A stretch of DNA of 57,697 nt from Vasconcelosia minhoensis LEGE 07310 (lineage in GTDB: Bacteria; Cyanobacteriota; Cyanobacteriia; Phormidesmidales; Phormidesmidaceae): NCBI RefSeq assembly GCF_015207255.1, contig NZ_JADEXG010000029.1:1-57697 (forward strand), written 5' to 3'. Shown one piece after another: positions 6,881 through 57,697 of the stretch (position 1 is its first letter; each line of letters starts with the position of its first letter). The notes below the pieces were generated by a model, which was given only the letters and a program-made list of their open reading frames with translations, did not search any database and had not been told where the DNA came from. A program made the position numbers and the translations under genes.

Positions 6881-6910
6881 ATTTGAAAATTTAAAGTTAG
6901 GAGAGAAATC

Positions 6911-8089: not shown

Positions 8090-8130
8090 CGTCAATTCCA
8101 TTTCCTTGAGAGTTCTGTTGGAGGTTTGCC

Positions 8131-10768: not shown

Positions 10769-10807
10769 CTGAGTTCGCGCCTGCCGTGGGTCGCAGGCGC
10801 GAATCAG
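10769..10807. terminator. Strong GC-rich hairpin between fadE and the next gene
   Basis: TTCGCGCCTGC (10774-10784) pairs perfectly with GCAGGCGCGAA (10793-10803). CTGA (10769-10772) and TCAG (10804-10807) extend the stem past a one-base bulge. It lies 43 bp before the ATG at 10851. No T-run follows directly; five T occur about 10 nt on. It may separate the fad operon from the next gene or act as a leader structure. A weaker 7-bp hairpin lies at 10580-10605. Confidence 0.55.
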
Positions 10808-10850
10808 GGCACAGCTGTTTTTGGCATGAAGTATGGCCTGGGAGACAGAG

Positions 10851-12425: not shown

Positions 12426-12460
12426 CCGCCGGACCTCGCTGATCTGAGCTGTTTTGGCTT

Positions 12461-12505
12461 AGCAGTAACCGCCCCAGATTAACTTAATCCGGGGCGGTTA
12501 CTGCT
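12461..12505. terminator. Long perfect inverted repeat, likely terminator
   Basis: AGCAGTAACCGCCCC (12461-12475) pairs with GGGGCGGTTACTGCT (12491-12505) over 15 bp. After one mismatch, five further pairs close down to a 3-nt loop. It begins 36 bp after the oxidoreductase stop. The trailing TCTCATATTCT is only moderately T-rich. The position and stem strength fit a terminator. Confidence 0.65.
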
Positions 12506-13868: not shown

Positions 13869-14036
13869 TCAATCATTTCGCGCACCAGCCTAAACGCCAG
13901 TGAGCCGATAGGCTGAGTTTCCAACTGTTCATTGACTAGCAGATTAACCCAGAAGTTGAACGCATAACGTTCGACTCTTGTTGATCTGCCTTAATTTTTT
14001 CCAACCACTTCACCTCGATATCGGAAAGGATTGGCA

Positions 14037-32700: not shown

Positions 32701-35700
32701 CGATATCTTAGGCAATAAGACAGATTTTGCTTATACCGTAGGCGGGCAAGTAGCCTCTGTCACCGATTTGCGGGATCGCGCCACTCAGTTTGTCTATGAC
32801 GATAAGTCTCGTCTGACCGAAACCCATTACTTCGATGGGACTAAAGCAACATTCACCTATGACAAACTAGGGCGCGTTGTCGCTGAAACAAATCAGTTGA
32901 ATCAAACAACGCAGTATAAATATGATGCCTTTGGTCAGGTAATAGCAGTCATCGATGCGTTAGGTGAACGCACAGTATTTGAATATGATACTCGCCAAAA
33001 TCTTGTAAAAGTCACTAATGCGTTAGGATATACAACTTACTACGAGTACGACCAATATAATCGTCAGGTCGCGACCAGGTATCACACTGGTGACCGGATA
33101 GGAAAGGGCTACGACAGCTTTAATCGTCTTATCAGCATTACTGATGAGAATGGTTACACTACTCGGTATGACTACAGTAATCTTAATCAGCTCACGACCA
33201 TCAGTCAGGCCAATGGCGCTCTAACTAACTATACATACGACATTCTAGGCCGACTGACACAAATTGAAGACCCCAATCAAAATGTAACTCGGTACGCATA
33301 TGATGCCTTTAATCGTACAGTTTCAACAACTTTGCCAATGGGTCAGCAAGATCAAATGGTCTATGACAAGTTTGGCTTGGTTTCAAGCTATACTGACTTC
33401 AATGGCGATACCCTCTTGTACACCTATGACCAGTACGGTCGTATAACGCAAAAATCGTTTAGCAATACCAATGTTGCCTCTGTTTCTTACACTTATGACC
33501 CTGTTACTTCCCAGCTTATAGAGGTCACCGATGGTCGTGGAACTACTAGCTATCACTATGACGAACGAGATCGGCTCGCTGCGATCACAAATCCAGATGG
33601 TAAGTCGGTTGGCTATGGCTATGACGTACTGAATAATCTGACCTTGCTCAAAACGGAGGCTGGCCAGATAACTTACACCTATGATGCGCTCAATCGCTTG
33701 GATACCGTTCAAGAAGCAGGGCGTTTACTGGCTGACTATGACTATGACGCCGTTAGCAATCTGATCCAAACTCGTCAAGCAGATGGCACTTCGGAAACTC
33801 GCCAGTATAATGCTCGCAATCGGCTTATAGAGCTAGAAACAAAAGATGCAGCTGACAATCTCCTCTCTAGCTATCGCTATACGTTAGACGCGGTTGGCAA
33901 CCGAACCCAGGTCTTTGAGCATTCAGGCCGTACGGTCAGCTATGTCTACGACGAGGTAAATCGCTTAACGGAAGAAGCCATCATAGATTCCGTGGCGGGG
34001 AACCGCACCGTTAGCTACAGTTACGACCTAGCCGGGAATCGTCTCTCGCGGAATGACTCAGTCAATGGATTGACAAGCTATCTTTATGATGCCAACAATC
34101 GCCTGACTCAAATGACTCTGGGCTCCGAGGTAACGCAGTTTGCTTACGATGCCAACGGATCTATGTTGAGTCGCTCGAATGGTACTGAGTCCGTTGCCTA
34201 TACTTGGCTTAATGATGGTGAAAATCGCCTGATAGGCATCACCATCAACGATGGCGACAACGTATCACAGATTAGCTATCTCTATGATGCTTTTGGTAAC
34301 CGGGTTACCAGCATCGCCAATGGAGAAAAAACTAACTATCTAAGCGCTTCGATCTGGAATTTGCCTCAGGTCTTGCTGACGTATGACGAAAATGGTCAGG
34401 TGATCACTGACTATACCTACGGGCTCGATCTAATCCGTTCTCGCGAGGCAGGCACTGAACGCATCTATCATCAAGATGGATTGGGCTCAACCCGTCTGCT
34501 GACAGATAATACGGGGCAGGTTATAGATCGCTACGTCTATGATGCCTATGGTCGTCTGATTGCGCATGATGGCAATGCTGACAACGCCTATCAGTTTGCT
34601 GGTGAGCAGCGGGATTCGCAGACCGGCTTGGACTACCTGAGGGCAAGGTACTATGACTCTGACTTAGGACGCTTCATCTCCAAAGATGCGTTCTCTGGTA
34701 TGCTTGGCGACCCGATGAGTCAGCATGACTATCAGTATGCTCATGCTAATCCGGTCAATTTTACTGACCCTACTGGCTACTTTTCATTACAGGAAGCTTT
34801 GTCAGTTACTGCAATGCTCAGTATCACAGCTAGTTTAGGTGCTTCAGCGGGATACTTAGGAGGAGCGATCGCGGGCGGCAGCGTCCGCAGTGCGGAGGAT
34901 CTAGTCAGCTTGCTAGACCAGTGGGTGGCTGGCTTTGCTCACTTTGTGAGCTTTGGAGCAACTACCTACATCCGCAATAACTACATCGGTGGTGTTGCTC
35001 CACAGCATCACTCGGGTTTCCTATGGAATATGGGTCAGCTCGCTGGTGCGGGCACTGCCCTGTTGATGGGTGCTGCTGTACCTGACAAGCTCTCGTTCAC
35101 CATGGGCCGCGCTGCGTGGCTGGCGACCGCTTATGAAGGAGCTTCCTCGTTTAGTGCAGCTTGGCAGACAGGTACAAACACTCGAAACGGGCAGCTGGGA
35201 TGGAGTGATGCGTTTACGCTATTGCCTCTGATTCCTTTTGCTCTGAGTTCCAATGGCACGAAGGCATTCTTAGGAGCTGCCCAAGACGTTAATCAACGCC
35301 TCAAAAACTGGGGCAATATGAATGTTAGCGCCTGGACAGGACAGATTCCGAAGGGCACGAGCAAAGAGATTGGCACAGCTATTAGCGAAATCGGTTCCAA
35401 GGAGGAAGCTGCCGCTCGCATAGCAGGTGCTTTAAGATATAAAATTCTAGGTACAAACCTTGAGCAAGGAGGAAAATTTAGTCCTATCGAGGCGCTAGGA
35501 GCTACCCGAATAGAAAATATCATAGGTAGAAGACTATCGCCTTCTGATATTGAAGGAGTCGATTTTATCGACGGCGGAAACCTAGGTAAAATTCAGCTTA
35601 AAGGGCCATATTTGACGGACGACTTGCAGCCGCTCTCACCTGAGCGCCAACAGAAGGCAATTGCGAGTGTTTTGCGAAAGATCCAAGGTAACACTGCTCC

Positions 35701-35809
35701 AGATACATTTGTGATAGACACATTAGGATTATCCAACGAAGCATATACTCAGCTTAACCAAGCAGTACAGCAATTACCGAATGCTCAGAAGGTTCGATTC
35801 ATTAGATAG
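23738..35809 (+). CDS. 3' part of the split giant gene: repeats, VWA, RHS shell and C-terminal toxin
   Basis: Coding continuity with the upstream half begins at 23649 (GFTVRVYSPTNQQVYSSA); ATG 23738 is just the first Met, with no ribosome binding site. Order by position: PPC-like repeats to ~26.88 kb; SdrD_B-like domain with nested VWA (27.33-28.27 kb; MIDAS DVSGSMGG at 27425); about seven He_PIG/cadherin-like Ig repeats (28.28-30.2 kb); an Ig-like domain; RHS/YD repeats (30.78-34.7 kb) starting at SIPVAGIPISLTRTYDS; RHS core GLDYLRARYYDSDLGRF and PVNFTDPTGY, the usual self-cleavage border; a pretoxin region; a toxin tip. If only this fragment were made it would lack the N-terminus. Whether it is expressed is unknown. 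Confidence 0.88.
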   Translation: MLAESGTYRLVIDGNDDRVGEYKFRLLDKAAAALITLDQEVIGRFPDSRQSDLYRFTGSTGQYVYVNQQVGGSPNQWYLFGPGGLRVSSEYIYNDQEFALPADGEYWLVMRGNGSSNLNYKFTLVTPEFSTQNLSLNQTISGTLTEPGENDTYTFNGAIGQQLFFDALNSNSPGFTVRLYSPTNQQVYSSAIQSDWRLDRTFVLSESGTYRLVIDGDGDRTGDYSFRLLDKAAATLINLDQEVTGKFTDSRQSDLYRFTGSTGQYMYVNQQMGSSNEWYLFGPGGLKVSSDQIYDDQEFVLPADGEYLLVMQGKGYTPSDYQFTLVTPEFVTQALPLNQVISGTLTEPGENDTYTFSGAIGQQLFFDALSATYFRAKLYDPIGREVFNLDSRYDRGPSDGLLLSMNGTYRVVIDGVGDRTGDYKFRLLDKAAATVVSFNTEVKGTFEQDGIGSELYRFTGVAGQSIYLDTGSGQYPNSWILYGPGGQHISNGYVQDNYNYSYADDYEFTLPATGEYLLVMQGKGAVNVNFKFKLVTPETLSTSLTIGTLVTGNISNAGEQDIYTFDGIVGQQLYFDALKGNSNLKARLIGPGGAVVLDKNTNGDWGGFNLTETGTYRLLIDGEKATTGEYSFILSDRALSPALTLDTAIAGSLNPGNQAKLYQFTGKTGQRLKFALEAASWNGANWVLYNPSGGIAKAPTASSPDFAATIGADGLYTLAILGNSSAPISYSFKVTDLQAEQITNTGLNTIQSGSLSAGQVNDYSFSATAGTLIYLDSHTNSSTWYLRTRLLNPDGTFVFNNEDARNNRGPILLEQSGTYTLQTYGTYSNTIGNYQFNLLELPRDIASPNPNALRIGEINTENLSSRQSKVYIFEGAIGEKFALNALVGQNVKATVYDPNGSQLFSNSLYWYGDSKPLTLSQSGLYYLVVENYDTASQNYSFQLLNISNLPEIRYGLPVSGSLKNGQENHFYKLQAQAGERLFFDHLTTTAPNSNFRWKLFGPSNNLLFDTALQSDFEFAIPTTGEYYLKIEGGNTLGKVDYSYRVLKHTAAVRDVIIPGTGETAANDTDSLGLIPVQLSVKDSRRASSVQNFNVKLWADPDNGNPIITSIPEPRFSLADKVYRYQLKSIDPDADNLSYRLLESPLGALIDNESGEILWYPENTVNPGSTVNFKVEASDRRGGKAVQSFSVDVFSSLGKIQGVVFNDLNGNGIPDSKLIKGDNPDVFFVIDVSGSMGGRYVDWTTVDLNTVFDQALSPLDQELGSIIALSDFLIARGFGDTSQIGVITSGQSLYDMDPSMPGIQVSTTPLADNNNNGIRDILEVLNRQPGGGGSDTSGLETAWVLQQVTDRDANIIFMSDGFISVDTRLVADIKADGVNIQAFGFAQNGMDTMRLVEPNALYISSPNSIENIFSGFDTRYILEPLMENVTVYLDLNENGVLDVDEPFQITKSTEETNFGDSRYQFSFDDLLPGTYTIRQVIPSGYTQTSPSSYSFVDTVTVAGGEAFTHWFGLNKVAEPPNQDPAFHSIAPSPALKLGEHFLYRAVAHDPDANPLTYDLPLGPEGMVIDQKTGELTWIPKANQVGKFNVILRVKDDQGGFALQTFTGEVLPKNTAPLFTSALPATVKPQVGNLFQYQAKAIDADGDTLTYSLLTGAPNGMTIDATTGLLRWTPTAVGTQEATIKVIDGKGGESLQKLALTVNPAAANQAPTITSTPRTTVQLGNTFFYQVSTSDAEGDRVSYSLETAPAGMTLQDGVISWTPTAAQSGTHPVTIKVSDGKLATTQSFPLTVAHQSVNYAPTITSAPNLVTNLEQTYVYDLVGSDPDGDRVFWSLEKAPSGMVIDAETGALRWQPQPGQIGTHQVLVKITDAAGLESAQEFTLKVTGTNTPPAILSTPITRAAQGQAYSYTVVATDPENDPIAFSLGRRPEGMTIGSDGIIRWTPKSTQLGAQLVEVLATDSQGGTTTQRFTVEVGTAAINHAPTITSTPVFLAMPTQGYVYQVQATDIDAGDMLTYQLLDGPTGMTIDAATGKLEWAMPTIGAHQVVVGAVDSKGVGAAQGFTLTVRQNHAPVITSTAPETAMLGTTYRYDVRATDADGDRIFYRLDPASLAQGLSIDALGRIAWTPTVADIGQSYPVTITVTDEQGATQQQSFTLSVAQDTQAPTVTVFATQSLVDVGSTVTLVARATDNVRVANLTLVVGGQAVVLDANGRATLRVEQAGELTAVAAAIDAAGNRSQATTTIQVIDPTAPFDPDLSFDLPEVVTAPTQFNVAGTGVVGYKLEVAPIAGGQWRTLTEKQGDIATDETATFDPSLLENDTYLARLTLYGANGSVVFVEDTVSVAGELKLGNFRLSFTDLSIPVAGIPISLTRTYDSLTAYTTDDFGFGWRMEFRDTDLRTSLRRTEEQELVGIYPGFKDGTRVYITLPGGQRQGFTFKPTGDRLNQFFGAAPEAALYHPAFEADKGVTSTLTVKDVRITRGGTDQYAGLVGNPYNPADPIYGGIYVLTTKDGTVYEIDGQTGDLLTVTDANGNRLTYTDESITSSTGQKVTFERDSQNRITAVKDLMGELIRYSYDAMGDLVAVTDRLGNTTRLVYDAERQHYLKEIIDPLGRSGVKSEYDENGRLRKLLDVNGEAVELVYDPANSQQTVKDVFGNPTTYVYDQRGNVVTEVDALGGITQRTYDRDDNLLSETDPDGIVTTYTYDNSGNTITIKDSAGNITYMSYGQYGRLQSVTSPTGLSITFEYDKRGNLLSSTDSNGLLTTYQYDSRGRLLKQVGPDGQIMVYGYDALGNPNRMVDSRGNEVTSTYDRNGRMQKATTEFVVNGETYVHSTSFIYDSEGRTLSSTNAQGNTQSNVYNSLGQVVSTIDILGNVTSFVYDDAGRVIGITLPDNTPDNPDDNPKVFNEYDLAGRLISETSATGLVTRYSYDVLGRLIETILPDETPDTFDDNPRITTEYTVAGRIKARTDVFGNRETYEYDSIGRLIRKTDILGNKTDFAYTVGGQVASVTDLRDRATQFVYDDKSRLTETHYFDGTKATFTYDKLGRVVAETNQLNQTTQYKYDAFGQVIAVIDALGERTVFEYDTRQNLVKVTNALGYTTYYEYDQYNRQVATRYHTGDRIGKGYDSFNRLISITDENGYTTRYDYSNLNQLTTISQANGALTNYTYDILGRLTQIEDPNQNVTRYAYDAFNRTVSTTLPMGQQDQMVYDKFGLVSSYTDFNGDTLLYTYDQYGRITQKSFSNTNVASVSYTYDPVTSQLIEVTDGRGTTSYHYDERDRLAAITNPDGKSVGYGYDVLNNLTLLKTEAGQITYTYDALNRLDTVQEAGRLLADYDYDAVSNLIQTRQADGTSETRQYNARNRLIELETKDAADNLLSSYRYTLDAVGNRTQVFEHSGRTVSYVYDEVNRLTEEAIIDSVAGNRTVSYSYDLAGNRLSRNDSVNGLTSYLYDANNRLTQMTLGSEVTQFAYDANGSMLSRSNGTESVAYTWLNDGENRLIGITINDGDNVSQISYLYDAFGNRVTSIANGEKTNYLSASIWNLPQVLLTYDENGQVITDYTYGLDLIRSREAGTERIYHQDGLGSTRLLTDNTGQVIDRYVYDAYGRLIAHDGNADNAYQFAGEQRDSQTGLDYLRARYYDSDLGRFISKDAFSGMLGDPMSQHDYQYAHANPVNFTDPTGYFSLQEALSVTAMLSITASLGASAGYLGGAIAGGSVRSAEDLVSLLDQWVAGFAHFVSFGATTYIRNNYIGGVAPQHHSGFLWNMGQLAGAGTALLMGAAVPDKLSFTMGRAAWLATAYEGASSFSAAWQTGTNTRNGQLGWSDAFTLLPLIPFALSSNGTKAFLGAAQDVNQRLKNWGNMNVSAWTGQIPKGTSKEIGTAISEIGSKEEAAARIAGALRYKILGTNLEQGGKFSPIEALGATRIENIIGRRLSPSDIEGVDFIDGGNLGKIQLKGPYLTDDLQPLSPERQQKAIASVLRKIQGNTAPDTFVIDTLGLSNEAYTQLNQAVQQLPNAQKVRFIR
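27334..28270 (+). other. VWA domain nested inside an SdrD_B-like domain
   Basis: GVVFNDLNGNGIPD at about 27.34 kb is the usual opening strand of a cyanobacterial SdrD_B-like domain. Its usual continuation, NVTVYLDLNENGVLDVDEP, appears only at about 28.02 kb. Between them sits a von Willebrand A fold with VFFVIDVSGSMGG (metal-binding DxSxS starting at 27425), a later Thr/Asp-rich segment and NIIFMSDGF. The B-type domain then closes with LPGTYTIRQVIPSGYTQT. This looks like an in-frame domain insertion. Confidence 0.7.
34784..35809 (+). other. Pretoxin region and C-terminal toxin tip of the RHS protein
   Basis: After the RHS border PVNFTDPTGY the sequence becomes variable-type. About 180 residues contain Gly/Ala-rich hydrophobic stretches (AGTALLMGAAV, LLPLIPFALS), a typical pretoxin. 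The last ~130 residues hold EAAARIAGALRYKILGTN, GATRIENIIGRRLSP, GVDFIDGGNLGKIQLKGP and FVIDTLGLSNEAY. The E...D...QxK order with a following strand resembles PD-(D/E)XK-type nuclease toxins seen at RHS/CDI tips. This is pattern matching, not a search. The cognate immunity gene is expected directly downstream, and a small gene is there. Confidence 0.6.
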
Positions 35810-46186: not shown

Positions 46187-47454
46187 CTACGCGCCAGTCG
46201 CTATCGCATCAGGCGGTTTCCTGTGCTTCAGTGCCCCAAGGTGCTTCATGCTTCCGCAGGAAGTAGAGCTTGAGGGCTCCACACTTGCGAGGGAAGATTC
46301 CTGCCCCCGTGCCCAGAGCAGGTTGACCTGGGCAGCATTTACGTCTCTGTCCTCAACGCGCTGGCACGCTGGGTTAGAGCAGATGTGAACTCGGTCTTTC
46401 AACGTCTTGGGGGTCAACTCCCAGCACTTTGCACAGCGCTGAGTCGGTTTGAGCTCTTGGGTGGGCGACTCCAAATAGAATCCGCCCGCCTCGGCTGACT
46501 TGTAGGCCAGCATCGGGCCAACCATGCCAAAGCCAACCGAGAGGATAGAACGGTTCAAGCCAGCTTTTTGGCGCTTCCGGTTCCCCTTTTTTTTGCTCGG
46601 GCTGTCATTCCCTTGACGTTGAGCTTTTCACCCGCGACCAGGCTATTACGGCTGACTGTGTCGCTGGTGAGTTTGTGCAACCAATCGGCTCGTTGATTGG
46701 CGACCTTTCGCTTGAGCCGGGCCACGTCCCGACTTGCTTTGCGCCACCGTCACGAGGCTTTGATGCCTGCTTTACGGTCAGGTCTGCGCTTGCGGCGAAG
46801 CTTTTTAGAGGCTGCCTTCACGGCTACATCCCCGTCCTGAATAAAGGTCGGTTTGGTTATCTTGCGGCCATCGGAGAAGGTGACGGCATCTTTGCAGCCC
46901 AGGTCAATGCCAATCGCACCAGGGCCAGTCTGCCGGACAGGCACACACTCCACCGTGATAGAGGCATACCATTTCCCTTCGCTGGCCCGATAGACGATGG
47001 TGCAGGGGGTCGGGGTGCCCCACCTCCGGGCTTTGCCGCACATCCGAATCTTGCCTAGATTCGTAATTTGCAGTTGACCATGCTTCCCGTCAGTGAGCGC
47101 TTTCCAACCCGCTTTCCCTGAGTAAGTGAAACCCGAATAGTGGCGAATTGTCTTGAACTTTGGATAGCCGCCTAGACCCTTGAAAAATCGCTGAAAGGCA
47201 AAATCTACTCGCTTCACTGTGGCCTGTAGCGCTTGGCTGCCTAGCGCTTTGTACTCAGGCCAGCACGCTTTGAAGGCTGGCAGCAGGTTTTGCTGGTCAA
47301 TGTAGCCGACAGACTGGCCGAATTTGCGGTAGCTCGTAATGCGATGCTCCACGCAGGCATTGTAGAGGTAGCCATGCAGCCGCCGCCACTCAAACAGCTT
47401 TTGCTGCTGCTGCTTGGTGGGGTATAGCCGGAAGGTGATGCGTCTAGTTACCAT
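46187..47454 (-). pseudogene. tnpB: tnpB (guide-RNA nuclease) with a stop and a frameshift
   Basis: TnpB is an RNA-guided RuvC-like nuclease. The N-terminal part (47454 to 46750) carries RLYPTKQQQQKLFEWRRLHG and the first RuvC Asp in GIDLGCKDAV. An in-frame TGA at 46750-46752 interrupts it, probably from a CGA Arg codon; reading through gives RWRKASRDVARLKRKVANQR and the Glu in LVAGEKLNVKGMT. A second lesion, one base too few in an 8-base A-run (T at 46587-46594), shifts the frame. The C-terminal part (46558-46187) then supplies the zinc finger CAKC...CSNPAC and the last Asp in DRDVNAAQ. All three catalytic acidic residues are still encoded, but not in one frame. Confidence 0.85.
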
Positions 47455-47477
47455 GTCCTAAGTATACCTCACCTGCA

Positions 47478-47900
47478 ATGACTAGGACAACGCTACATAA
47501 GGCAGCTCATGTCGCTTACAGTATTCACCTACATATTTACCTGGTGACACGGTATCGCCGTAAATGCCTCACACAACCAATAGCTGAGTGCATCGCGGAA
47601 ACTGTGCGGCGAATTTGTACTAAGAACAGGTCTGAACTAATGGAATGGGGGGTTGAGCCTGACCATATTCATTTCCTGGTCAGCTTGCACCCAGACAACA
47701 ACATCTCTCAGCTCGTCAAAAGCTTCAAGTCTGCTTCAACCAAGGCCGTGATGGCTCAATTCCCGTCCGATTTCAGGCAGACTTACGGGAAGGGCCGCAG
47801 CCTGTGGGGTAGGCAGAAAGCCATAATCTCCTGCGGCGGAGCGCCCTTGGCAATTGTGATGGAGTACGTCAAGAACCAGGCAGGGGTTGAGGCTGAGTAG
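47478..47900 (+). CDS. tnpA: IS200-family Y1 transposase TnpA
   Basis: This 140-residue single-strand transposase has the family start (VAYSIHLHIYLVTRYRRK), the HUH metal-binding pair in DHIHFLVSL and the catalytic Tyr in AIVMEYVKNQ. LWGRQKAIISCGGAPL, the usual segment before the catalytic helix, is present. Length is normal. It looks intact, unlike the neighbouring tnpB, so the element could in principle still move. Confidence 0.88.
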   Translation: MTRTTLHKAAHVAYSIHLHIYLVTRYRRKCLTQPIAECIAETVRRICTKNRSELMEWGVEPDHIHFLVSLHPDNNISQLVKSFKSASTKAVMAQFPSDFRQTYGKGRSLWGRQKAIISCGGAPLAIVMEYVKNQAGVEAE

Positions 47901-48553: not shown

Positions 48554-49459
48554 ATGAATAAGATGAATAAGACGCAAAAACGTATCCTCGTTTACTGTGC
48601 AACAGGTCTTCAAGGACAAGCCGTTGCCAGTCGCCTTCTACTAAAGGAGGACTTTTCAATCAGGCTCCTAGTCCGAAACCCGGAAAAAGCTGAAGCTTTA
48701 CAACGAGCCGGAGCCGAGATTTTTTGTGGAGATCTTGGAGAGGCTTCAAGCTTGGTTTCGGCTAACGATGGCGTTGACCGAGTCTTTTTACAGCTGCCAC
48801 TAGACTTTACACCAGCTGTTGTTGACTACGCCATTAATGCAATCGATGCAGCAAAAGAAGCTGGTGTCAGCTTGCTTGTACTGAATACAAGTGTCATAGT
48901 ACCTAGCGAAAAAACAGGCGTGAAAGCTATAGATCTCAAGTACGATATCGAACATTATCTGAAACGAAGTAGTCTACCCTATATTATCCTACGGCCGACA
49001 TTTTATATGGAAAACTTAGCCGCTCCCTGGTCTGTACCCAGCATTCAAGAAAAGTCGACTGTTGCCTATCCCATTCCAGCTGATTTCCCCGCATCTTGGA
49101 TTGGGGTTGAAGATCTGGCCTCATATGTGGTGGAAGCTTTGAAAAAAACTGAGCTAGCAGGCTCTGAATTTAACATCGGTGGGCCTGAAGTTTTGACGGG
49201 CAAGGATATTGCTGAGCGGTTTTCTCAGGCACTACGTCGAGAAATTGATTACTATCCCATCCCTCTTGATACGTTTGAAGAACAAATCAATGCTGGTATC
49301 GGTGAGCCCATTGGGACAGAAATTGCGGCCTTATATGGATGGTTTGTGAGTCAGCCGCAGTCGCCAGTAGCTCTGAGTCTAAACGCAGTACTAGAAAAGT
49401 TACCAGTGCAGCTAACACCAATGAGTGAATGGATTAATCAGCAAGACTGTTTTAAATGA
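48554..49459 (+). CDS. NmrA-like NAD(P)-binding reductase (atypical SDR)
   Basis: This 301-residue protein opens with a Rossmann motif of the NmrA type, YCATGLQGQAVASRLL, then RLLVRNPEKAEAL and the strand/loop GVSLLVLNTSV. LPYIILRPTFYMENLA is the conserved NmrA/isoflavone-reductase segment and the C-terminal lid has FNIGGPEVLTGKDIAE. The family includes quinone and phenylpropanoid reductases and redox-sensing regulators. Substrate is unknown. Two in-frame ATGs are possible (48554 and 48563, in an AAGATGAAT repeat). It is first in a run with a diiron protein and a ScyD-like protein, so a tailoring step on an aromatic product is an inference. Confidence 0.8.
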   Translation: MNKMNKTQKRILVYCATGLQGQAVASRLLLKEDFSIRLLVRNPEKAEALQRAGAEIFCGDLGEASSLVSANDGVDRVFLQLPLDFTPAVVDYAINAIDAAKEAGVSLLVLNTSVIVPSEKTGVKAIDLKYDIEHYLKRSSLPYIILRPTFYMENLAAPWSVPSIQEKSTVAYPIPADFPASWIGVEDLASYVVEALKKTELAGSEFNIGGPEVLTGKDIAERFSQALRREIDYYPIPLDTFEEQINAGIGEPIGTEIAALYGWFVSQPQSPVALSLNAVLEKLPVQLTPMSEWINQQDCFK

Positions 49460-49561
49460 AGTAAATCATACCATTTCCAACTTGCCGCGAATTTCGATGC
49501 CTGCATATTCATCTGCGGTTCTTTGTTCTCATCAAACCAACCTAAAATACAGGAAATATCT

Positions 49562-50272
49562 ATGAGTCACGCCAGTACAGACAGGACTTTAGCTCCATCT
49601 AGTGTTACAATGCATTCGCTTTACAACTATCTTGAATTAAAGGAAAACATATTTATGGAGCACTTATTCTTTAAACAGCTAGAATCCTTGAATAGCTTGA
49701 GTCAGCTAGCTCCAGTGGCTCAGAAAATGGCCTTTTGGGTATTGTCTTTTCAAGATCTCTTAGAACTCAACGTGAGAAGGATTCAGGATGGAAGCTTAAA
49801 AAAACTACTGAGATTGCATCAGTCTGAAGATGCGGGTCATGAGGAATGGTTTTTGCATGATTTGGATGTAATGAACGTCGAAGCGCCTGGGATTCGCTCC
49901 TTGTATGGTGAGAAAAATACACCGGTCCGCGACACAACCTATGAAATCCTTGCTAAGGTCTTCGAGGCTCGTAGCGATCACGAGCGTATCGCGATCTTAT
50001 TAACAATTGAGTCTGCTGCAAAGGTTTTCTTTAGCAAGATTTCTGGATTTTCAGAGCGGCTAGAAGCTTCTGATAAATTAAAATACTTCTCAAAAAAACA
50101 TCTAGCAGCAGAAGAGAGTCATGATTCTTTGGATAATGAGATGGACGAGCTGTTGGCCCATATGTGGATGGCTGACGATAAAAAGCAGGTAGTACATAGA
50201 ATTGTTGACCATGTCTACATAAACTTTTCAAATATGTTTGATCACTTCAACACACTATTAACGATAAGCTAA
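49562..50272 (+). CDS. Haem-oxygenase-like diiron oxidase/oxygenase (HDO family)
   Basis: This all-helical 236-residue protein starts at ATG 49562, with AGGAAA 8 nt upstream; an upstream TTG is unlikely. It carries the spaced ligand sets of the haem-oxygenase-like metalloenzymes: LHQSEDAGHEEWFLHDLDV, the Glu in LLTIESAAKVFF and the KHLAAEESHDSL helix. Members include UndA, BesC and SznF, which cleave or N-oxygenate amino or fatty acids, and CADD-type proteins. The substrate is not predictable. It lies between an NmrA reductase and a ScyD-like protein, upstream of trp genes, so an amino-acid- or tryptophan-derived substrate is plausible but unproven. Confidence 0.7.
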   Translation: MSHASTDRTLAPSSVTMHSLYNYLELKENIFMEHLFFKQLESLNSLSQLAPVAQKMAFWVLSFQDLLELNVRRIQDGSLKKLLRLHQSEDAGHEEWFLHDLDVMNVEAPGIRSLYGEKNTPVRDTTYEILAKVFEARSDHERIAILLTIESAAKVFFSKISGFSERLEASDKLKYFSKKHLAAEESHDSLDNEMDELLAHMWMADDKKQVVHRIVDHVYINFSNMFDHFNTLLTIS

Positions 50273-50404
50273 TGTTTCTGCAGGAATTCGAAATAAGGAT
50301 GAGGATTCACATTCGGCCCGGTAATGGTAACGGCTGCTTATGTCTGATAATGCAGACACCAAGTTTGAAATAACGTGTTGGTCTAAGATAGGATTTTCGC
50401 CATC

Positions 50405-51715
50405 ATGAAGATGATTCGCAATCAGTGTTTTATTGGTCAGTACTCTTTGAAACTGTTGATTAGTGTATTCTCAGCTCTGCTCTGTTCTGCTGGTGTAGCT
50501 CAAGCTGCAAGCCTAACAACCATTGCTACAGGGCTGAACAATCCAAGAGGAATGACGTTTGGTCCAGAAGGCGAACTGTACGTTGCTGAAGCAGGCATCG
50601 GTGGAAATGGCCTGACGGTGCCAGCGCCGGAGCTAAATTCAATTCAAACCTTTGGACTTTCGGGCTCTGTCACGAAAGTAAAAGATGGAATGCAACAGCG
50701 TGTAATAACTGACTTGCCGTCGTTAGCATTGATTCCAGTAGGCGCTACGGCCCCGACTAATTTAGGGGCGACACTTCCCGCGACAGGGGTTCATGATATT
50801 GATTTTGACCAGAATGGAAATCCTTACGCTCTATTCGGGTATGCGACAACAACTGATCAGAAAGACGCGATTGTTGCAGCAGGTGGCAATGACTTAGGAA
50901 AGTTGCTTTCATTCGATATCAACAAGGATGGGTACTGGGAGCGCGGAGACTTTACAGTCGATTTAGTAGAGTTTGAGGAATTAGACAATCCGGATGATGG
51001 TGCGTTTCTCAATAATCCATTTGATTTAGAGATTTATAATAATACCTTTTACGTTTCAGATCCTGGAGGAAACAACTTCTATTCTGCAGGCCTAGATGGA
51101 AATGTTACTCTAAATGCAGTTTTTCCTCCGGAAGTTGTTGATGGTGAGTCTTTCGAGCGCGTGCCTACGACAGCAGCCTTAGGACCTGATGGTGCTTTTT
51201 ACATAGGAGAGCTAACCGGCAACTTCGCGCCGCCTGGTAGCGCTCGCGTCTTGAGACTCGCTTCCGGAAGTGATCCTGAGGTTTTCGCTGGAGGATTTAC
51301 TCAAATTATCGGGTTGGATTTTGACAGCAATGGCGATCTGTATGTTTTAGAATTTGCCGTCAATCCAGATGCCCCTATTCCCACAGATGAATCTGAACAA
51401 GACTTTACAGGCGCACTCCGAAAAATCTCTGCGAACGGTAGCCTACGCACACTAATTGAAGCTGGCGAAGGGTTAGTAGGGCCGACTGGCTTGGCCATAG
51501 GACCTGATGACTCTATTTATGTCTCGAACTTCGGCACCACTATAGGGAGCGGCGAAATTGTCCGTGTAGAGGAGGCACCTTCCGTTCCGGAGAGGGCTTC
51601 AGGATTGCCTATTTTAGCTGTGGGCGCTGCTGGATATATCTTGTTAAAGAAAAAAACAATGACCTCACAGGCTCAAAAATTAAAATTACAGAATGTAAAC
51701 TCAGCGGCTAGCTAG
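50405..51715 (+). CDS. ScyD/ScyE-like exported beta-propeller protein
   Basis: This 436-residue protein has a signal peptide (hydrophobic LLISVFSALLCSAGVAQA, cleavage near residue 35). NHL/SMP30-like repeats follow: GLNNPRGMTFGPEGELYVAE, GVHDIDFDQNGNPYALFGYA, AALGPDGAFYIGELTGNF and TGLAIGPDDSIYVSNFG. The end VPERASGLPILAVGAAGYIL plus KKK resembles a PEP-CTERM sorting signal. ScyD and ScyE are periplasmic proteins of the scytonemin sunscreen cluster. The rest of that cluster (scyA-C) is not in this window. Its 3' end overlaps the convergent regulator gene by 15 bp. Confidence 0.8.
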   Translation: MKMIRNQCFIGQYSLKLLISVFSALLCSAGVAQAASLTTIATGLNNPRGMTFGPEGELYVAEAGIGGNGLTVPAPELNSIQTFGLSGSVTKVKDGMQQRVITDLPSLALIPVGATAPTNLGATLPATGVHDIDFDQNGNPYALFGYATTTDQKDAIVAAGGNDLGKLLSFDINKDGYWERGDFTVDLVEFEELDNPDDGAFLNNPFDLEIYNNTFYVSDPGGNNFYSAGLDGNVTLNAVFPPEVVDGESFERVPTTAALGPDGAFYIGELTGNFAPPGSARVLRLASGSDPEVFAGGFTQIIGLDFDSNGDLYVLEFAVNPDAPIPTDESEQDFTGALRKISANGSLRTLIEAGEGLVGPTGLAIGPDDSIYVSNFGTTIGSGEIVRVEEAPSVPERASGLPILAVGAAGYILLKKKTMTSQAQKLKLQNVNSAAS

Positions 51716-52024
51716 ATAAACCTCCCCCCACTGCTTCATCGATATTAATATCGGAATAAGGCTGCGGCCTTCCTGAGTAAGAGAATATTCAACTTTAAGA
51801 GGTGACAAATAAGCTTTCCTTTGGATCAAGTAATCCCGTTCAAGTTCTTTAAGTTGAAGTGTCAGGACACGTCGGCTGATGCTCGGAATCTTTCGTTGGA
51901 GCTGGCCAAATCTCTGAGTGTCCTCTCCCAAGTAGTACAAAATGTTGGGCTTCCATTTTCCAGAAATAAGATCAATCGTAATTTTTACTGGGCATGTCTC
52001 CTGAGGTTTAGTCTCAGTTTTCAT
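51701..52024 (-). CDS. HxlR-family winged-helix regulator
   Basis: This 107-residue DNA-binding regulator shows the HxlR pattern: ETCPVKITIDLISGKWKPNI, then FGQLQRKIPSISRRVLTLQL and KELERDYLIQRKAYLS. The N-terminal Cys in TCPV is at the position used for thiol sensing of quinones and electrophiles in relatives such as YodB/HypR. Start: ATG at 52024, with AAGGAG 9 nt upstream, rather than ATG 52030. It is divergent from trpEG and convergent with the ScyD-like gene, which makes it the likely regulator of both units. HxlR proteins often control NmrA/quinone-reductase genes, which fits the gene at 48554. Confidence 0.85.
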   Translation of the reverse strand: MKTETKPQETCPVKITIDLISGKWKPNILYYLGEDTQRFGQLQRKIPSISRRVLTLQLKELERDYLIQRKAYLSPLKVEYSLTQEGRSLIPILISMKQWGEVYLASR

Positions 52025-52274
52025 GATCATACACTCCTTGCATTTTCGGTGTCAACGCACAAGTAGTTGAGTCATGATCAATTTTAGCAGCTTATAACCG
52101 CCCAACTGCCTGAAATTCCAACTTAATAGAAATGACGCCTATCTGGCTGCCGAATTAATAGTAAGTATCGCCATCGCAAGCTAGCAACATGTATTGCTTA
52201 TCTCATCTTCTCTTTTACGGATTGGCTTGGGAAAAAGTACCAAACGAGAAACGTTTAAAAATAAGGAAAATGCA
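52025..52274. promoter_or_regulatory. Divergent control region between hxlR-like gene and trpEG
   Basis: This 250-bp gap holds the promoters for both directions. The 9-mer TCATGATCA occurs at 52021-52029 (over the regulator start) and again at 52072-52080, 51 bp apart; each contains the palindromic core TGATCA. They are candidate operator half-sites of the HxlR protein. The region is AT-rich. No attenuator-like Trp-codon leader was seen. Confidence 0.45.
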
Positions 52275-54491
52275 ATGCTTCAAGAGTCTTATACCTATAC
52301 TACACGCGGCAATGTTCAGGTGAGTCGCCGTGTAACCTCTCTATCCATAGCAGAAACTTTCAGCGGTCTACTTCCACAACTTGACTCAAAAAAAGGGGCA
52401 ATACTTCAAAGCAGTTATGAGTATCCAGGACGTTACAAGCGTTGGGCGATCGGCTTCGTCGATCCGCCTTTAGAAATAACTACTAAGGATAATACTTTTG
52501 TAATCAGAGCATTGAACGATCGGGGGCAGGTGTTAGTGTCCCATTTAGACCTTATCCTATGCTGCATTTCAGGCATAGATGACCTAAAACGTGAAAATCA
52601 GTGTATCAGAGGAAAGATTTTGCCTGGCAAGCAAATGTTTCAAGAAGAGAATCGTAGTCGTCAGCCTTCGGTGTTTTCGATAATTCGTTCCGTTTTAGAT
52701 ACCTTTCACAGTGACCAAGATAGCTACCTTGGTCTCTATGGAGCGTTTGGATACAACCTCATCTTCCAATTTGAATCCGTTTCCAAGCGTCGTGACCAAG
52801 GCGATGAACAGCGTGACATAGTGCTCTATTTACCTGATCATTTATTTGTCATTGATAATAGCGCCCGGCAGTCGTTTGAGTTGGAATATGAGTTTGATAC
52901 TGAAACTGGCAGTACCAAAGGTGTAGCACGCTGCGGCGAAGTCACTGACTTTCGCGGAGAGCGGCAGTTCTTAACACGCCAGTGCGACCATCAGCCTGGC
53001 GAGTATGCTGAATTAGTAAAGAAGGCGCTCAGGTATTTTCGCCAAGGAGACTTATTTGAAGTAGTGCCCAGCCAAAGCTTTTTCAGGAGCTGCAATGAAC
53101 CACCTTCTAAGTTGTTTGAAACCCTCCTTGAGATTAATCCAAGCCCCTATAGTTTTATGTTTAATTTGGGGGGCGAGTATCTGATTGGCGCTTCACCAGA
53201 AATGTTTGTGCGGGTTGATGGCCGTCGTGTTGAAACCTGTCCGATTAGTGGCACTATTCGGCGCGGTCAAAATGCCATTGAGGATGCTTCTCGGATACTT
53301 GAATTGCTGAATTCTAAAAAGGATGAAGCTGAACTTACGATGTGTACCGATGTAGATCGTAACGATAAGTCTCGCATTTGTGACCCAGGTTCAGTGCGGG
53401 TAATAGGCCGACGCCAGGTTGAACTTTACAGCCACCTGATTCACACGGTGGATCATGTTGAAGGTTTTCTGTGTCCTGAATTTGATGGCGTAGATGCATT
53501 CTTGACACATACTTGGGCAGTGACAGTAACAGGCGCACCTAAACGTGCAGCGGTTCAGTTTATTGAAGAAAATGAGAGCAGTTCTCGTCGATGGTATGGA
53601 GGAGCCGTTGGGTCTTTCACTTTTAACGGAAGTGTGAATACTGGGCTTGTCCTCCGAACCATACGTCTCAAAGATTCAATTGCCGAAATTCGCGTGGGTG
53701 CGACCTTACTGTATGATTCGCAGCCTGAAGCTGAAGAAGAAGAAATACAACTCAAGGCAACGGCGATGCTTCAAGCTCTGCACTTGGCTCAGCAGAATAA
53801 CTCTCCATTAAATCATCGGTTAAGGCCACAGACAAAATCGCAGGTTCTAGAGTGGCCTCAGCTAAGGAAAAAGGTCGTCCTATTAATAGATTATGAGGAC
53901 TCGTTTGTTCATACACTAGCAAACTACATTCGCCAGACAGGGGCTCGAGTTATCACTCTTCGTCATGGATTTCCAGAATCGGTATTTGAAATAGAAAATC
54001 CAGATTTAGTAGTTCTTTCCCCCGGCCCCGGCAGACCAAGCGATTTTAACTTAAGCAACGCTATTCAAACCTGTGTTCAACGAGATATTCCGCTATTTGG
54101 GGTTTGTTTGGGGTTACAGGGTATAGTAGAAAGGTTTGGTGGAGAGCTCAGTCTGTTGCCGACTCCGCAGCATGGTAAGGCCTCTGAGATCTCGGTGACT
54201 TCTGCCGAGTCATTTCTTTTTGAAGGGTTGCCTCAAAGATTTGTTGTAGGACGATATCATTCATTATGCGTCCAACCAGAAAAAACACCCTCTGAGCTGG
54301 TTGTAACCGCTATCTCAGAAGAAGGGGTTGTGATGGCTATTGAGCATAAAGTGTTGCCCATCGCGGCAGTCCAATTTCATCCCGAATCGATCATGACGTT
54401 AGCGGACGGGATCGGCTTGTCTATCATACACAACGTCATACAGAAATTCACCAAGTTGGCACCGACAGAGAGGCCCGTTCCCGTCGGCTAG
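52275..54491 (+). CDS. trpEG: Fused anthranilate synthase (TrpE-TrpG)
   Basis: This single chain of 738 residues converts chorismate plus glutamine to anthranilate, the first step to tryptophan. ATG 52275 has AAGGA 7 nt upstream; the longer reading from 52194 is unlikely. The TrpE part has ILQSSYEYPGRYKRW (Trp-feedback region), SGTIRRG, CTDVDRNDKSR and TVTGAPKRAA. From ~560 the amidotransferase starts (VVLLIDYEDSFVHTLA), with the Cys in GVCLGLQG and His/Glu in QFHPES. Such fusions are known in Nostoc and Agrobacterium. Catalytic residues look intact. Feedback insensitivity cannot be judged by eye. It heads a run trpEG-trpC-trpA-trpB. Confidence 0.93.
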   Translation: MLQESYTYTTRGNVQVSRRVTSLSIAETFSGLLPQLDSKKGAILQSSYEYPGRYKRWAIGFVDPPLEITTKDNTFVIRALNDRGQVLVSHLDLILCCISGIDDLKRENQCIRGKILPGKQMFQEENRSRQPSVFSIIRSVLDTFHSDQDSYLGLYGAFGYNLIFQFESVSKRRDQGDEQRDIVLYLPDHLFVIDNSARQSFELEYEFDTETGSTKGVARCGEVTDFRGERQFLTRQCDHQPGEYAELVKKALRYFRQGDLFEVVPSQSFFRSCNEPPSKLFETLLEINPSPYSFMFNLGGEYLIGASPEMFVRVDGRRVETCPISGTIRRGQNAIEDASRILELLNSKKDEAELTMCTDVDRNDKSRICDPGSVRVIGRRQVELYSHLIHTVDHVEGFLCPEFDGVDAFLTHTWAVTVTGAPKRAAVQFIEENESSSRRWYGGAVGSFTFNGSVNTGLVLRTIRLKDSIAEIRVGATLLYDSQPEAEEEEIQLKATAMLQALHLAQQNNSPLNHRLRPQTKSQVLEWPQLRKKVVLLIDYEDSFVHTLANYIRQTGARVITLRHGFPESVFEIENPDLVVLSPGPGRPSDFNLSNAIQTCVQRDIPLFGVCLGLQGIVERFGGELSLLPTPQHGKASEISVTSAESFLFEGLPQRFVVGRYHSLCVQPEKTPSELVVTAISEEGVVMAIEHKVLPIAAVQFHPESIMTLADGIGLSIIHNVIQKFTKLAPTERPVPVG

Positions 54492-54582
54492 GGGAAAACA
54501 GCCAAATGACCGGAAGAACCTTAATTGTACTGCACATTATGTCGCATTGAAGCTCTTTGAATGTACCTATTCTTGAGAAGAT

Positions 54583-55488
54583 ATGAAAATCCCCCCTTTC
54601 CCGATTCCTTTATCATTACCTCGTTTGAGCAATTATCCTACGACGAACTCTCACTCCATTCTCACTAGGATTGTGCGACACAAACAGCAGGAAGTTGTTC
54701 ATATGAGGCGGCAGCAATCTTTCGAGGAGATTGTTCAATGGGCTGAGGATATGCCAATCTGTCAAGATTTTGCTCGTGCGCTATGTTTAAAATCCGACAA
54801 GTCTAATTCTGGTTTTCCGAGTTCTAGGCCAAGCTTAATAGCTGAGATTAAGAAAGCATCTCCTAGTAAAGGCGTGATTCGAGAAAACTTCAATCCTGTG
54901 ACAATTGCAAGAGCCTACGAACAAGGTGGTGCAACTTGTCTGTCGGTTTTGACGGATTCAGCATTTTTTCAAGGTAGCTTTGCCAACTTGTGGGAAGTTC
55001 GAAGACGTGTAGCACTGCCATTGCTGTGTAAGGAATTTATTATTGATGCCTATCAGGTTTACCTAGCTCGTGTGGCGGGGGCAGATGCGGTACTTCTGAT
55101 TGCGGCCATTCTGCCTGAAGACAAGGGGCAACGCCTGTTGAGTCTTATTCACAGCTTAGGGATGCAATCTCTCGTTGAAGTGCATACTTTAGCAGAGCTT
55201 GATAGAGTAATGAATTGGTTGCCATTGGACATGGTGGGCATTAACAATCGTAATTTAGAGGACTTTAGGATTGATATCTCTAATACCCAACGGCTGCTAG
55301 CGGCACGTCGGGAACAATTGGATCGTCAAAAAATTCCTGTGATTAGCGAGTCAGGTCTAGACTCTCCGACAGCTTTATCAATGGTTTCTAAGGCGGGCGC
55401 GTCAGGCGTTTTAGTCGGTGAATCTCTTTTAAAAAAGCCCGATCTTGAGCAGGCTGTCAAAATACTACTAGAATTTCCTAAGAAATAG
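54583..55488 (+). CDS. trpC: Indole-3-glycerol phosphate synthase
   Basis: This 301-residue TIM-barrel enzyme closes the indole ring (CdRP to indole-3-glycerol phosphate). Visible: [17 protein letters not shown] at the entry helix, [17 protein letters not shown] (catalytic Lys region), [40 protein letters not shown] and SESGL...[12 protein letters not shown] Pro-rich N-terminal extension of ~25 residues precedes the usual start. It follows trpEG by 91 bp. Phosphoribosyl-anthranilate steps (trpD, trpF) are not in the window. Confidence 0.95.
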
Positions 55489-55537
55489 CAGTGGAACAAT
55501 TCTCGATTTAATAATGTTGTTTTTAAGTAGAAGCGCT

Positions 55538-56344
55538 ATGACCTCAGTCTCGGACCGTTTGAAAGCGTTACGCCAGCAGCAACTGTGTGCGCTTATCCCT
55601 TTTGTGATGGCAGGTGATCCTGACTTAGAAACAACGGCGCAAGCACTGCAAGTTCTCGATACTAGTGGGGCTGATTTACTTGAATTAGGGGTGCCCTATT
55701 CTGATCCTCTGGCTGATGGTCCTGTTATTCACGCAGCTGCAACACGGGCCTTAACCAAAGGGACTTCTTTCGATCGTGTTCTCGTGATGGTCGCCTCTGT
55801 CGTAGAAAAGTTGAGATCGCCACTTATTTTATTTGTTTACTACAACCTTATTTTGAATCGTGGTGTTAGTGTTTGTTTGGACCAAATTCAGCAAGCAGGT
55901 ATAAAAGGGTTGGTTGTGCCTGACCTACCCTTTGAGGAATCAAGAGCGTTGCTCAGAGCGGCAGCAGAGCGAGGTTTAGAGGTGATATTGTTGGTAGCTC
56001 CGTCGAGCCCTGCCGAGCGGATGCGCGCCATCTCGGGGGCTTCGCAGGGCTTTGTTTATTTGGTCAGCACGACCGGCGTGACAGGCACGCGGGTGCAAGT
56101 TGATGAGCGCGTAGTCTCACTGATAGAAAGGTTGAAATCACACACAGCCAAGCCTATTGGTGTTGGCTTTGGGATTTCTCATTGTGAGCAAGCCAGTCAG
56201 GTTAAAGCCCTGGGAGCAGACGCCGTTATTGTCGGGAGTGCCTTTGTAAAGCGTTTGGCAGAACCCTCTGATAGGCGGCTTCAATCAATCGAAGAATTTT
56301 GTCACAGTCTAAAATATTCCATCTCCGTTTCACCTTTGAGGTAA
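55538..56344 (+). CDS. trpA: Tryptophan synthase alpha chain
   Basis: This 268-residue alpha subunit cleaves indole-3-glycerol phosphate to indole. The start at 55538 ([15 protein letters not shown]) matches the family; the longer reading from 55514 adds eight residues without support. Catalytic Glu and Asp are in [44 protein letters not shown] and PIGVGFGIS form the active-site loops. It pairs with the beta chain encoded 61 bp downstream, with which it would channel indole; alternatively the cluster could divert indole to another product. Confidence 0.95.
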
Positions 56345-56405
56345 TTCATTTCTTTCAATAACGCCATCGTACCTATCAAAACCTTCGTGGAGATAGTTAA
56401 AAATC

Positions 56406-57653
56406 GTGAGTACTTCAGAAGCAGCCGCGCCACCCTTACAATTTTCTGAACAGCCTGATGCCTTTGGTCGATTTGGGGCCTTTGGAGGTAAGTATGTACC
56501 TGAAACTCTTATGCCCGCTCTAACCGAGATTGAAGCAGCTTTTCAGGACTCTCGTCTTGATGTGACCTTCAATCGAGAGCTAAAGCAGCTACTGCGGGAC
56601 TATGTGGGACGGCCCTGCCCACTATATTTTGCCGAGCGTCTGACCGCCCAATACCAGCAGCCAAATGGCTCTGGCCCCCAAATTTATCTAAAGCGCGAAG
56701 ATTTGAACCATACCGGCGCTCACAAAATCAACAATGCATTGGCGCAGGCCCTGCTAGCAAAGCGCATGGGCAAACGCAAGATTGTCGCTGAAACCGGAGC
56801 CGGGCAGCACGGTGTTGCTACCGCTACAGCCTGCGCTCGCTTTGGGCTAGAGTGCATCATTTATATGGGCATTCACGATATGGCTCGGCAGGCGCTGAAC
56901 GTATTTCGGATGCGGCTAATGGGGGCAGAAGTGCGCCCGGTCGAAGTGGGAACCGGCACTCTCAAGGACGCTACCTCTGAAGCCATCCGGGACTGGGTAA
57001 CCCACGTTGAAACGACTCACTATATTTTGGGTTCTGTCGCCGGGCCGCATCCCTACCCAATGATGGTTAGAGACTTCCACGCCGTCATCGGTCAGGAAAC
57101 CCGCATCCAGTGTGAGGAAAAGTGGGGCGGCCTGCCGGACATTCTGCTGGCCTGCGTCGGCGGCGGTTCCAACGCGATCGGGCTGTTCTATGAGTTTATT
57201 CAAGACCCTGCGGTGCGAATTATTGGGGTTGAGGCCGCTGGAGAAGGCGTAGACACCGACAGGCACGCCGCCACGCTGACCAAGGGGCGCGTCGGCGTCC
57301 TCCACGGCGCGATGAGCTACCTACTGCAAGACTCGGAAGGCCAGATCGTCGAGGCTCACTCGATCAGCGCCGGGCTCGACTACCCAGGCGTTGGTCCCGA
57401 GCACAGCTACCTCAAAGAAACCGGCCGGGCCGAATACTACAGCGTCACCGACCAGCAGGCCCTAAGCGGATTCCAGCTGCTCTCACAGCTAGAAGGCATC
57501 ATCCCCGCCCTCGAAACCGCCCATGCCATCGCCTATCTAGACAGTCTATGTCCCCAGCTAGAAGGCAGCCCCCGCATCGTCATCAACTGCTCCGGCCGCG
57601 GCGACAAAGACGTCCAAACCGCCGCCAAAGCCCTCAGTCTTGGTGATTCGTAA
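56406..57653 (+). CDS. trpB: Tryptophan synthase beta chain
   Basis: This 415-residue PLP enzyme condenses indole with serine. It starts at a GTG. Marks: [20 protein letters not shown], the PLP lysine in [39 protein letters not shown] and the C-terminal NCSGRGDKD. Length is typical of TrpB1. The 3' half is richer in G/C by eye than the trpE-C-A genes and resembles the host-like genes at the left of the window, though it has no GCGATCGC. It ends 44 bp before the window edge, so trpD or further cluster genes may follow. Confidence 0.96.
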
Positions 57654-57697
57654 CTCGCCACGCCATTACTCCCCTCCTCAATCACTCCCCCATGACC

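Follow-up and report, generated by a model that had tools for sequence, protein, structure and literature searches.

The window analysed here is the whole of contig C112 (57,697 bases) from the 5.26-Mb draft genome of the cyanobacterium Vasconcelosia minhoensis LEGE 07310 (161 contigs, listed as 100% complete), and its right-hand end carries eight genes, encoding an NmrA-type oxidoreductase, a haem-oxygenase-like diiron enzyme, a ScyD-like protein, an HxlR-type regulator, a fused anthranilate synthase (TrpEG), and TrpC, TrpA, and TrpB. We regard this locus, with a probability of roughly 0.6, as a working specialised-metabolite locus that joins the supply and export chassis of scytonemin biosynthesis to a different core reaction. 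Because the core scytonemin enzymes are missing and an iron enzyme related to AetD is in place, the compound made and exported is probably a different tryptophan derivative. The preliminary description of the window, drawn up from its letters alone, had left two possibilities, a new compound derived from tryptophan and a scytonemin locus in rearranged form, and this proposal gains support from a chassis of scytonemin type, core enzymes that were not found, and an AetD-family enzyme beside the supply genes. All eight genes that it named are present where it placed them, as intact open reading frames (ORFs) with family-model matches in support (Table 1).

Since the window is a complete contig, the locus is cut at its right end: C112 stops 44 bases past trpB, with a terminal ATG ACC that lies 38 bases past the trpB stop codon. 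The preliminary description had suggested looking to the right of the window, and there we infer that contig C54 follows, opening in a CCCACC-rich tract only a few codons after the trpD start and continuing with an aroG-eboA fusion and then eboB to eboF (assigned by models for EboA, EboC, and EboE and by recognised type for EboB, EboD, and EboF). The complete eboA-F order is likewise that of the eustigmatophyte/bacterial operon (ebo) as found in Nostoc, plastids, and the Pseudomonas EDB locus, except that EboA here forms the C-terminal part of an AroG-EboA fusion and that the client metabolite would be new. Further copies lie elsewhere in the genome. A second trpB (C102) and a second trpD (C107) both exceed the cut-offs of their models; C23 carries a trpE-type gene whose 513.0 bits fall short of the required 517.7, and C94 one of the trpG/pabA type. 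No search was made for a second trpC, trpA, or aroG. Given the copies on C102, C107, and C23, the trp genes of the locus are an additional set, at least for trpB and trpD and probably also for trpE, and the resolution of the TrpB and TrpD trees is too low to place the window copies. The preliminary description had held that a sole trp set with no further biosynthetic genes nearby would speak against it; this is not the situation here, as the trp genes are not the only set and dedicated ebo genes follow them.

The closest known counterpart of this arrangement is the scytonemin cluster of the Nostoc punctiforme type (scyABCDEF with trpECABD-aroG-tyrA and ebo), in which, according to PMC2726228, ScyA is a thiamine diphosphate-dependent enzyme, ScyB a tryptophan dehydrogenase, ScyC a cyclase, and ScyE periplasmic. 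Common to both loci are an additional fused TrpEG, joined in the customary order by TrpC, A, B, D, and AroG, neighbouring ebo genes, and a predicted exported protein of the ScyD/ScyE family. Unlike the scytonemin cluster, the present locus has a single, divergent ScyD/E-family protein, an HxlR regulator, an AetD-family diiron enzyme, and an aroG fused to eboA; neither the window nor the first 20 kb of C54 gave a tyrA, and for ScyA, B, C, and F the genome yielded at most distant homologues. Hapalindole- and ambiguine-type clusters, too, combine indole-alkaloid genes with trp genes of their own. The genes identified here, however, include no isonitrile synthase or Rieske gene, and EboC is the only UbiA-type protein seen; no genome-wide search was made for these or for a dedicated prenyltransferase.

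The core enzymes, first noted as missing from the window (where scyA, scyB, and scyC were not visible), were not found by searches of the genome either, apart from distant homologues. With the proteins of a compact full cluster as queries (G159, locus L061: scyA, B, C, a ScyD/E gene, scyF, trpEG, C, A, B, D, aroG, and tyrA), ScyC has no match in the window genome at E <= 1e-3, ScyB only partial dehydrogenase matches of 31-34%, and ScyA only matches of 27-29%; the ScyF model finds nothing, and the ScyD/E model finds the window gene as the only copy. Neither the window (local tblastn) nor the first 20 kb of C54 (blastp) holds a match to ScyA, B, C, F, or TyrA. The queries themselves are sound, because the same proteins match six other loci at 62-66% (ScyA and ScyB) and 67-71% (ScyC) identity, as shown by local blastp (the whole-genome search was not run on a known-positive genome).

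The name "ScyD-like" holds for the family, as the protein scores far above the cut-off of the ScyD/E model and carries, on reading its sequence, a signal peptide and a PEP-CTERM-like tail, but it does not extend to the lineage: the window protein and its copy in a second genome (G443) share a long common branch apart from 15 ScyD/ScyE rows of scytonemin loci (100/100). As far as sequence goes, it is a separate lineage of the family that could still do the work of ScyE. A search of genome contigs with this protein gave one locus, at 26% in a gammaproteobacterial metagenome-assembled genome, which we judged spurious.

The enzyme most likely to set the chemistry of the locus is the diiron enzyme, whose likely start codon lies at residue 14 of the ORF with AGGA just upstream (by reading the sequence). 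Against PF14518 the ORF scores 9e-05 and 22.8 bits, under the Pfam cut-off of 28.9, and its assignment is borne out by the match to AetD, the sole significant sequence relative among PDB structures (phmmer, E of 3e-7). A 17-row profile of the cyanobacterial family reaches AetD over its full length at 1.4e-70, a value that applies to the family as a whole and not to the window enzyme by itself, because 12 of the 17 rows belong to another, larger subfamily. With an AlphaFold model (predicted local distance difference test score of 89.9; predicted template modelling score of 0.84), the top 16 Foldseek rows are all AetD, and VIA-align superposes AetD with a Z score of 23.6 (221 residues, 2.6 A, 19% identity), followed by BesC at 20.0. 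The predicted seven-helix haem-oxygenase-like fold is closest to that of AetD. An identity as a thiaminase or CADD-like protein was rejected on its lower fold rank and the lack of a significant sequence match; that of a true AetD orthologue was rejected on a 23-row tree of sampled cyanobacterial enzymes (AetD itself not a row), in which the window enzyme forms a separate subfamily with those of G443, G024, G296, and G143, apart from the other 18 (100/100).

In AetD, the iron ligands are D76, H79, E140, H172, E176, and H179, Y167 contacts the substrate carboxylate, and F48 lies at the open Fe1 site (PMC11611611 and PMC10654658). Their counterparts here are D103, H106, E163, H193, E197, and H200 (numbering counted from printed alignments), Y188, and F76, so that there is no extra Glu ligand on auxiliary helix 2. 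All six ligands are invariant in the 17-row alignment; in a second alignment, of 24 rows, F76 and Y188 are present throughout (24/24), E197 is replaced by Asp in 4 rows, and one truncated ORF lacks the last two ligands. The pairing of Y188 with Y167 is seen in the profile alignment, while the single-sequence alignment has an intervening gap. Position 165 is Ala, as in AetD, in 5 of the 24 rows including the window enzyme, and position 235 is Phe in the window enzyme, at the place of AetD S214. According to the review PMC13108848, S214 contacts the 7-bromine in AetD, SktA has Phe there and Thr at the 165 position, and AetD cuts the tryptophan side chain to a nitrile, the product of SktA being skatole. 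AetD also converts unbrominated L-tryptophan, at about 35% compared with 100% for brominated substrates (again PMC11611611 and PMC10654658). The window enzyme is thus like AetD and SktA in its predicted diiron fold, identical ligand set, contact Tyr and Phe, and aromatic pocket; unlike them, it is tied to a dedicated tryptophan supply and to ebo genes, and, unlike the AetD pathway to aetokthonotoxin, the locus has no halogenase or cytochrome P450 among the genes identified.

Members of this enzyme family occur in 30 of 386 sampled genomes of the phylum (E <= 1e-3), the best match outside the window genome being 39% identical, and in 40 of 388 genomes of a second large sample (E <= 1e-8). Around other family members, 23 stretches of 10 to 20 kb (from 23 of these 40 genomes) hold no relatives of the trp, scy, ebo, NmrA, or HxlR genes at E <= 1e-5. 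Fused TrpEG is rarer, occurring in 14 of the 386 genomes (E <= 1e-120). Among the other 13, scyABC lie in the inspected stretch in 7, one of them G159, four stretches ended at ScyD/E genes so that the scyABC region lay outside inspection, and no scyABC were seen in two (G300 and G019; 38-48 kb inspected). Within the order, fused TrpEG is found in 4 of 63 genomes at the same threshold, in three of which trpEG and the gene of an AetD-family enzyme lie no more than about 2-3 kb apart; no such enzyme was found in the fourth (G395; 1,840 contigs, 90% complete). A plasmid search gave one distant haem-oxygenase-like diiron enzyme (27%, on a Calothrix plasmid) and TrpEG only below 60% identity, in 15 non-cyanobacterial records.

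Three neighbourhoods seen in this survey merit separate mention. In the same-family genome G400, a different enzyme of the AetD family is flanked by two P450s and lies next to an O-methyltransferase, some 3 kb ahead of a fused TrpEG (G400:C10:10000-48347, loci L097/L098; at about 23.1-31.6 kb the order is P450, AetD-family diiron enzyme, P450, O-methyltransferase, TrpEG, SnoaL-like protein, and transposase), which looks like another indole or anthranilate pathway. In G296, the gene of the diiron relative and that of a cytokinin-dehydrogenase-like FAD oxidase share a strand and a few bases of overlap (L069:4344-6580), suggesting a two-gene oxidative operon. Finally, G300 (contig C72, L065, positions 7383-18991) carries aroG, trpEG, C, A, and B, a Rieske oxygenase, a porin, and trpD with no scyABC in 48 kb, a supply set that possibly serves a different indole product.

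Comparative evidence comes from G443, a genome of a different genus in the same family, where the diiron, ScyD-like, HxlR, and TrpEG genes keep the order and orientation of the window. Identities to the window proteins are 60% for the diiron enzyme (blastp; 57% over the whole alignment), 70% for the ScyD-like protein, 68% for TrpEG, and 65-67% for HxlR, which again lies on the strand opposite its neighbours and keeps C13; the ScyD-like tail reads VPEP...KR. All six ebo genes (eboF-A) follow the block in convergent orientation, with EboA as a separate 303-residue gene in place of the AroG-EboA fusion, and no scyABC, scyF, or tyrA was found in 40 kb around the block (blastp). Between the two genomes, nonsynonymous distances (dN) are 0.31, 0.21, 0.25, and 0.22 for the diiron, ScyD-like, HxlR, and TrpEG genes, respectively, and synonymous distances (dS) are 2.2, 2.8, 1.7, and saturated. 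Judged from these distances, all four genes are under purifying selection.

Several observations weigh against our reading of a working tryptophan-derived pathway. The block is known from two genomes only, and the junction of C112 with C54 is itself an inferred one. The diiron enzyme shares only about 20% identity with AetD and belongs to a separate subfamily of five, in which three members (from G024, G296, and G143) have no trp, scy, or ebo genes nearby; moreover, AetD and SktA share their ligands yet differ in product (PMC13108848). The preliminary description was right that an NmrA gene is present, but the gene is absent at this position in G443, where a 32% identical NmrA lies beyond eboA; because it is not conserved in place, its membership in the locus is uncertain. 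The two halves of the locus may have different histories, as their base composition (see below) differs. In addition, the 40 kb inspected in G443 hold no trpC, A, B, or D and no aroG, so that it is mainly the window genome that points to tryptophan and not to anthranilate.

This last observation, together with G400, whose trpEG lies with P450s and a methyltransferase and no trpC, A, or B in the stretch, is what favours an anthranilate branch, in which TrpEG would supply anthranilate and the diiron enzyme would act on an anthranilate-derived or other amino acid. Set against it are trpC, A, and B in the window and trpD on C54, pocket residues (F76, W72, and Y188) and an open Fe1 that fit an aromatic alpha-amino acid, and the possibility that housekeeping trp genes complete tryptophan in G443 (for which no search was made). 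We consider an anthranilate branch unlikely.

Another explanation is that of a remnant scytonemin operon, from which scyABC and scyF were lost while the trp and ebo genes persist, with the diiron and NmrA genes as chance neighbours. Remnants of scytonemin operons in the form of trp/aro regions have been described (PMC6529634), and the fused TrpEG of G300 and G019 groups with scytonemin TrpEG although their inspected stretches lack scyABC. In the TrpEG tree, however, the window and G443 proteins group together (99/98) and fall outside the 14 other cyanobacterial rows (96/96). Scytonemin genes were seen in the loci of 11 of these rows but not in the stretches behind the remaining three (G019, G300, and G395). 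More distant still, and less well supported (87/81), is G400; the three outgroups are long-branched. Published supernumerary and remnant copies, in contrast, are said to nest within scytonemin clades in most phylogenies (PMC6529634). A decaying remnant is further disfavoured because the block is kept together in a second genus under purifying selection, and all eight window genes are intact, making this origin rather improbable.

Composition divides the locus in two. From NmrA to TrpA, the guanine-plus-cytosine (GC) content is 0.40-0.49 (third positions, 0.37-0.45), whereas TrpB and the trpD-ebo genes of C54 have 0.54-0.59 (third positions, 0.60-0.65), in keeping with other genes inspected in the genome (mostly 0.53-0.62). 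This jump, from about 0.45 to about 0.57, is the reason for allowing the two halves different histories, and it suggests that the left part was transferred or is an older low-GC block. In G443, the diiron and HxlR genes have a GC content of 0.43 and 0.42 and the ScyD-like gene 0.51, against a background of about 0.5-0.57. Immediately to the left of the GC drop in the window lies an IS200/IS605-like element at 46187-47900, with TnpA and with TnpB in two pieces (by eye). That GC falls from about 0.55 to about 0.43 directly after this TnpA/TnpB-type element would fit an assembly chimera or contaminant (NmrA to TrpA) joined at an insertion sequence, but the trp order runs unbroken from the low-GC part into the host-like TrpB and on to trpD-aroG of C54, as in scytonemin-type loci, and G443 holds the same block, with diiron and HxlR genes also of low GC, in a contig of 963,703 bases; such an artefact is very improbable. 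That the scytonemin pathway is complete, with scyABC hidden in an assembly gap of a draft in 161 contigs whose contig ends at the locus, is hardly credible for a genome listed as 100% complete in which searches gave no ScyC, no ScyF, and no further gene of the ScyD/E family, only distant ScyA and ScyB matches turned up, and neither the window with the first 20 kb of C54 nor the 40 kb around the G443 block holds scyABC.

For the working tryptophan-derived pathway, we envisage the following sequence of events. A dedicated AroG-TrpEG-D-C-A-B set would overproduce tryptophan, as suggested by the gene set and by the further trp copies elsewhere. The AetD-family enzyme, acting as a substrate-triggered diiron enzyme, would bind the amino acid at Fe1 via its amino and carboxylate groups and oxidatively shorten the tryptophan side chain in the cytoplasm, the likely product being indole-3-carbonitrile, indole-3-carbaldehyde, or a 3-alkylindole; NmrA may reduce an imine or aldehyde. 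Ebo proteins would then deliver the product into the periplasm. Outside the membrane, it could be acted on by the exported ScyD/E-family protein, which possibly couples two indoles, a role suggested by homology to ScyE, for which such coupling is proposed. That no tyrA turned up in the window or the first 20 kb of C54 fits a product without the p-hydroxyphenylpyruvate half of scytonemin.

The locus would be controlled by the cysteine-bearing HxlR protein in place of the two-component system reported for scytonemin. HxlR proteins of the YodB/QorR type respond to reactive electrophiles, and by analogy the one Cys (C13) suggests control by such compounds. No ultraviolet A-responsive two-component regulator was recognised among window ORFs at 43-57.7 kb (no genome-wide search was made), and Rfam at gathering scores gave no riboswitch or leader in 45.5-57.7 kb.

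Table 1. Genes of the locus at the right end of the window (C112) and on the following contig (C54)
Feature	Position	Strand	Support and remarks
NmrA-type NAD(P)H oxidoreductase, 301 aa; possible helper	48554..49459	+	PF05368, 7e-41
AetD-family haem-oxygenase-like diiron oxidase/oxygenase	49523..50272	+	likely start ATG 49562; phmmer to AetD, predicted fold
ScyD/ScyE-family protein	50405..51715	+	NF033206, 269.6 bits (cut-off 80)
HxlR-type regulator, one Cys (C13)	51701..52030	-	PF01638, 2e-29; divergent to trpEG
Fused anthranilate synthase TrpEG	52194..54491	+	TIGR01815 (TrpE-clade3), 1105.6 bits (cut-off 739); chorismate-binding and glutamine amidotransferase (GATase) parts
TrpC, indole-3-glycerol phosphate synthase	54583..55488	+	PF00218, 1e-78
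TrpA, tryptophan synthase alpha	55514..56344	+	TIGR00262, 299.6 bits
TrpB, tryptophan synthase beta, second copy in genome	56406..57653	+	TIGR00263, 613 bits; PALP fold
Probable trpD start (ATG ACC)	57692..57697	+	contig ends read; continuation on C54
TrpD	C54:21-1073		over TrpD model cut-off
AroG-EboA fusion, one continuous 694-aa ORF	C54 (L078):1073-3157		3-deoxy-D-arabino-heptulosonate 7-phosphate (DAHP) synthase model, residues 28-372; EboA model, 407-618
eboB (TatD type), eboC, eboD (dehydroquinate-synthase type), eboE, eboF (phosphodiesterase type)	C54, after aroG-eboA		

Some particulars of the single genes complete the picture. The best PDB relatives of the NmrA protein are an entry titled "Monooxygenase" (5f5l; 7e-22) and then triphenylmethane reductase (9e-14). 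The likely start of trpEG is ATG 52275 (residue 28; by reading the sequence), and TrpC shares 54-59% identity with its counterparts in 12 other TrpEG loci, as against 46% with the one in G019.

The remainder of the window holds two further features. At 2373-10563, genes for an acyl-CoA synthetase, a hydroxyacyl-CoA dehydrogenase/hydratase, a thiolase, and an acyl-CoA dehydrogenase follow one another as a beta-oxidation set (by reading translations); a fatty-acid beta-oxidation set is unusual for a cyanobacterium. Two giant ORFs rich in repeats lie at 14031-23588 (3185 aa) and 23738-35809 (4023 aa, with YD/RHS-like repeats); judged by eye, they may be one gene split by a frame break.

Taken to its most specific form, our reading is a hybrid pathway in which AetD-type shortening of tryptophan gives an indole nitrile or aldehyde that is exported by Ebo proteins and coupled by the ScyE-family protein to an extracellular biindole, a second class of sunscreen or defence pigment on the scytonemin chassis and an ancient sister lineage of it rather than a derivative. 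We propose this version tentatively, and its details are doubtful. A term search of open-licence literature found nothing that joins AetD, or haem-oxygenase-like diiron enzymes, with scytonemin, and we advance with like reserve the view that such a hybrid was not described before. Ebo genes are widespread, and among the sources consulted an exported client is shown only for scytonemin; the two described members of the AetD type, AetD and SktA, act on bromotryptophans (PMC13108848). An assay of one enzyme, the diiron enzyme, could decide the chemistry. If the reading is true, the locus would give AetD-type enzymes a new setting, and a second natural Ebo client with a different core enzyme would test Ebo as a general exporter of small molecules.

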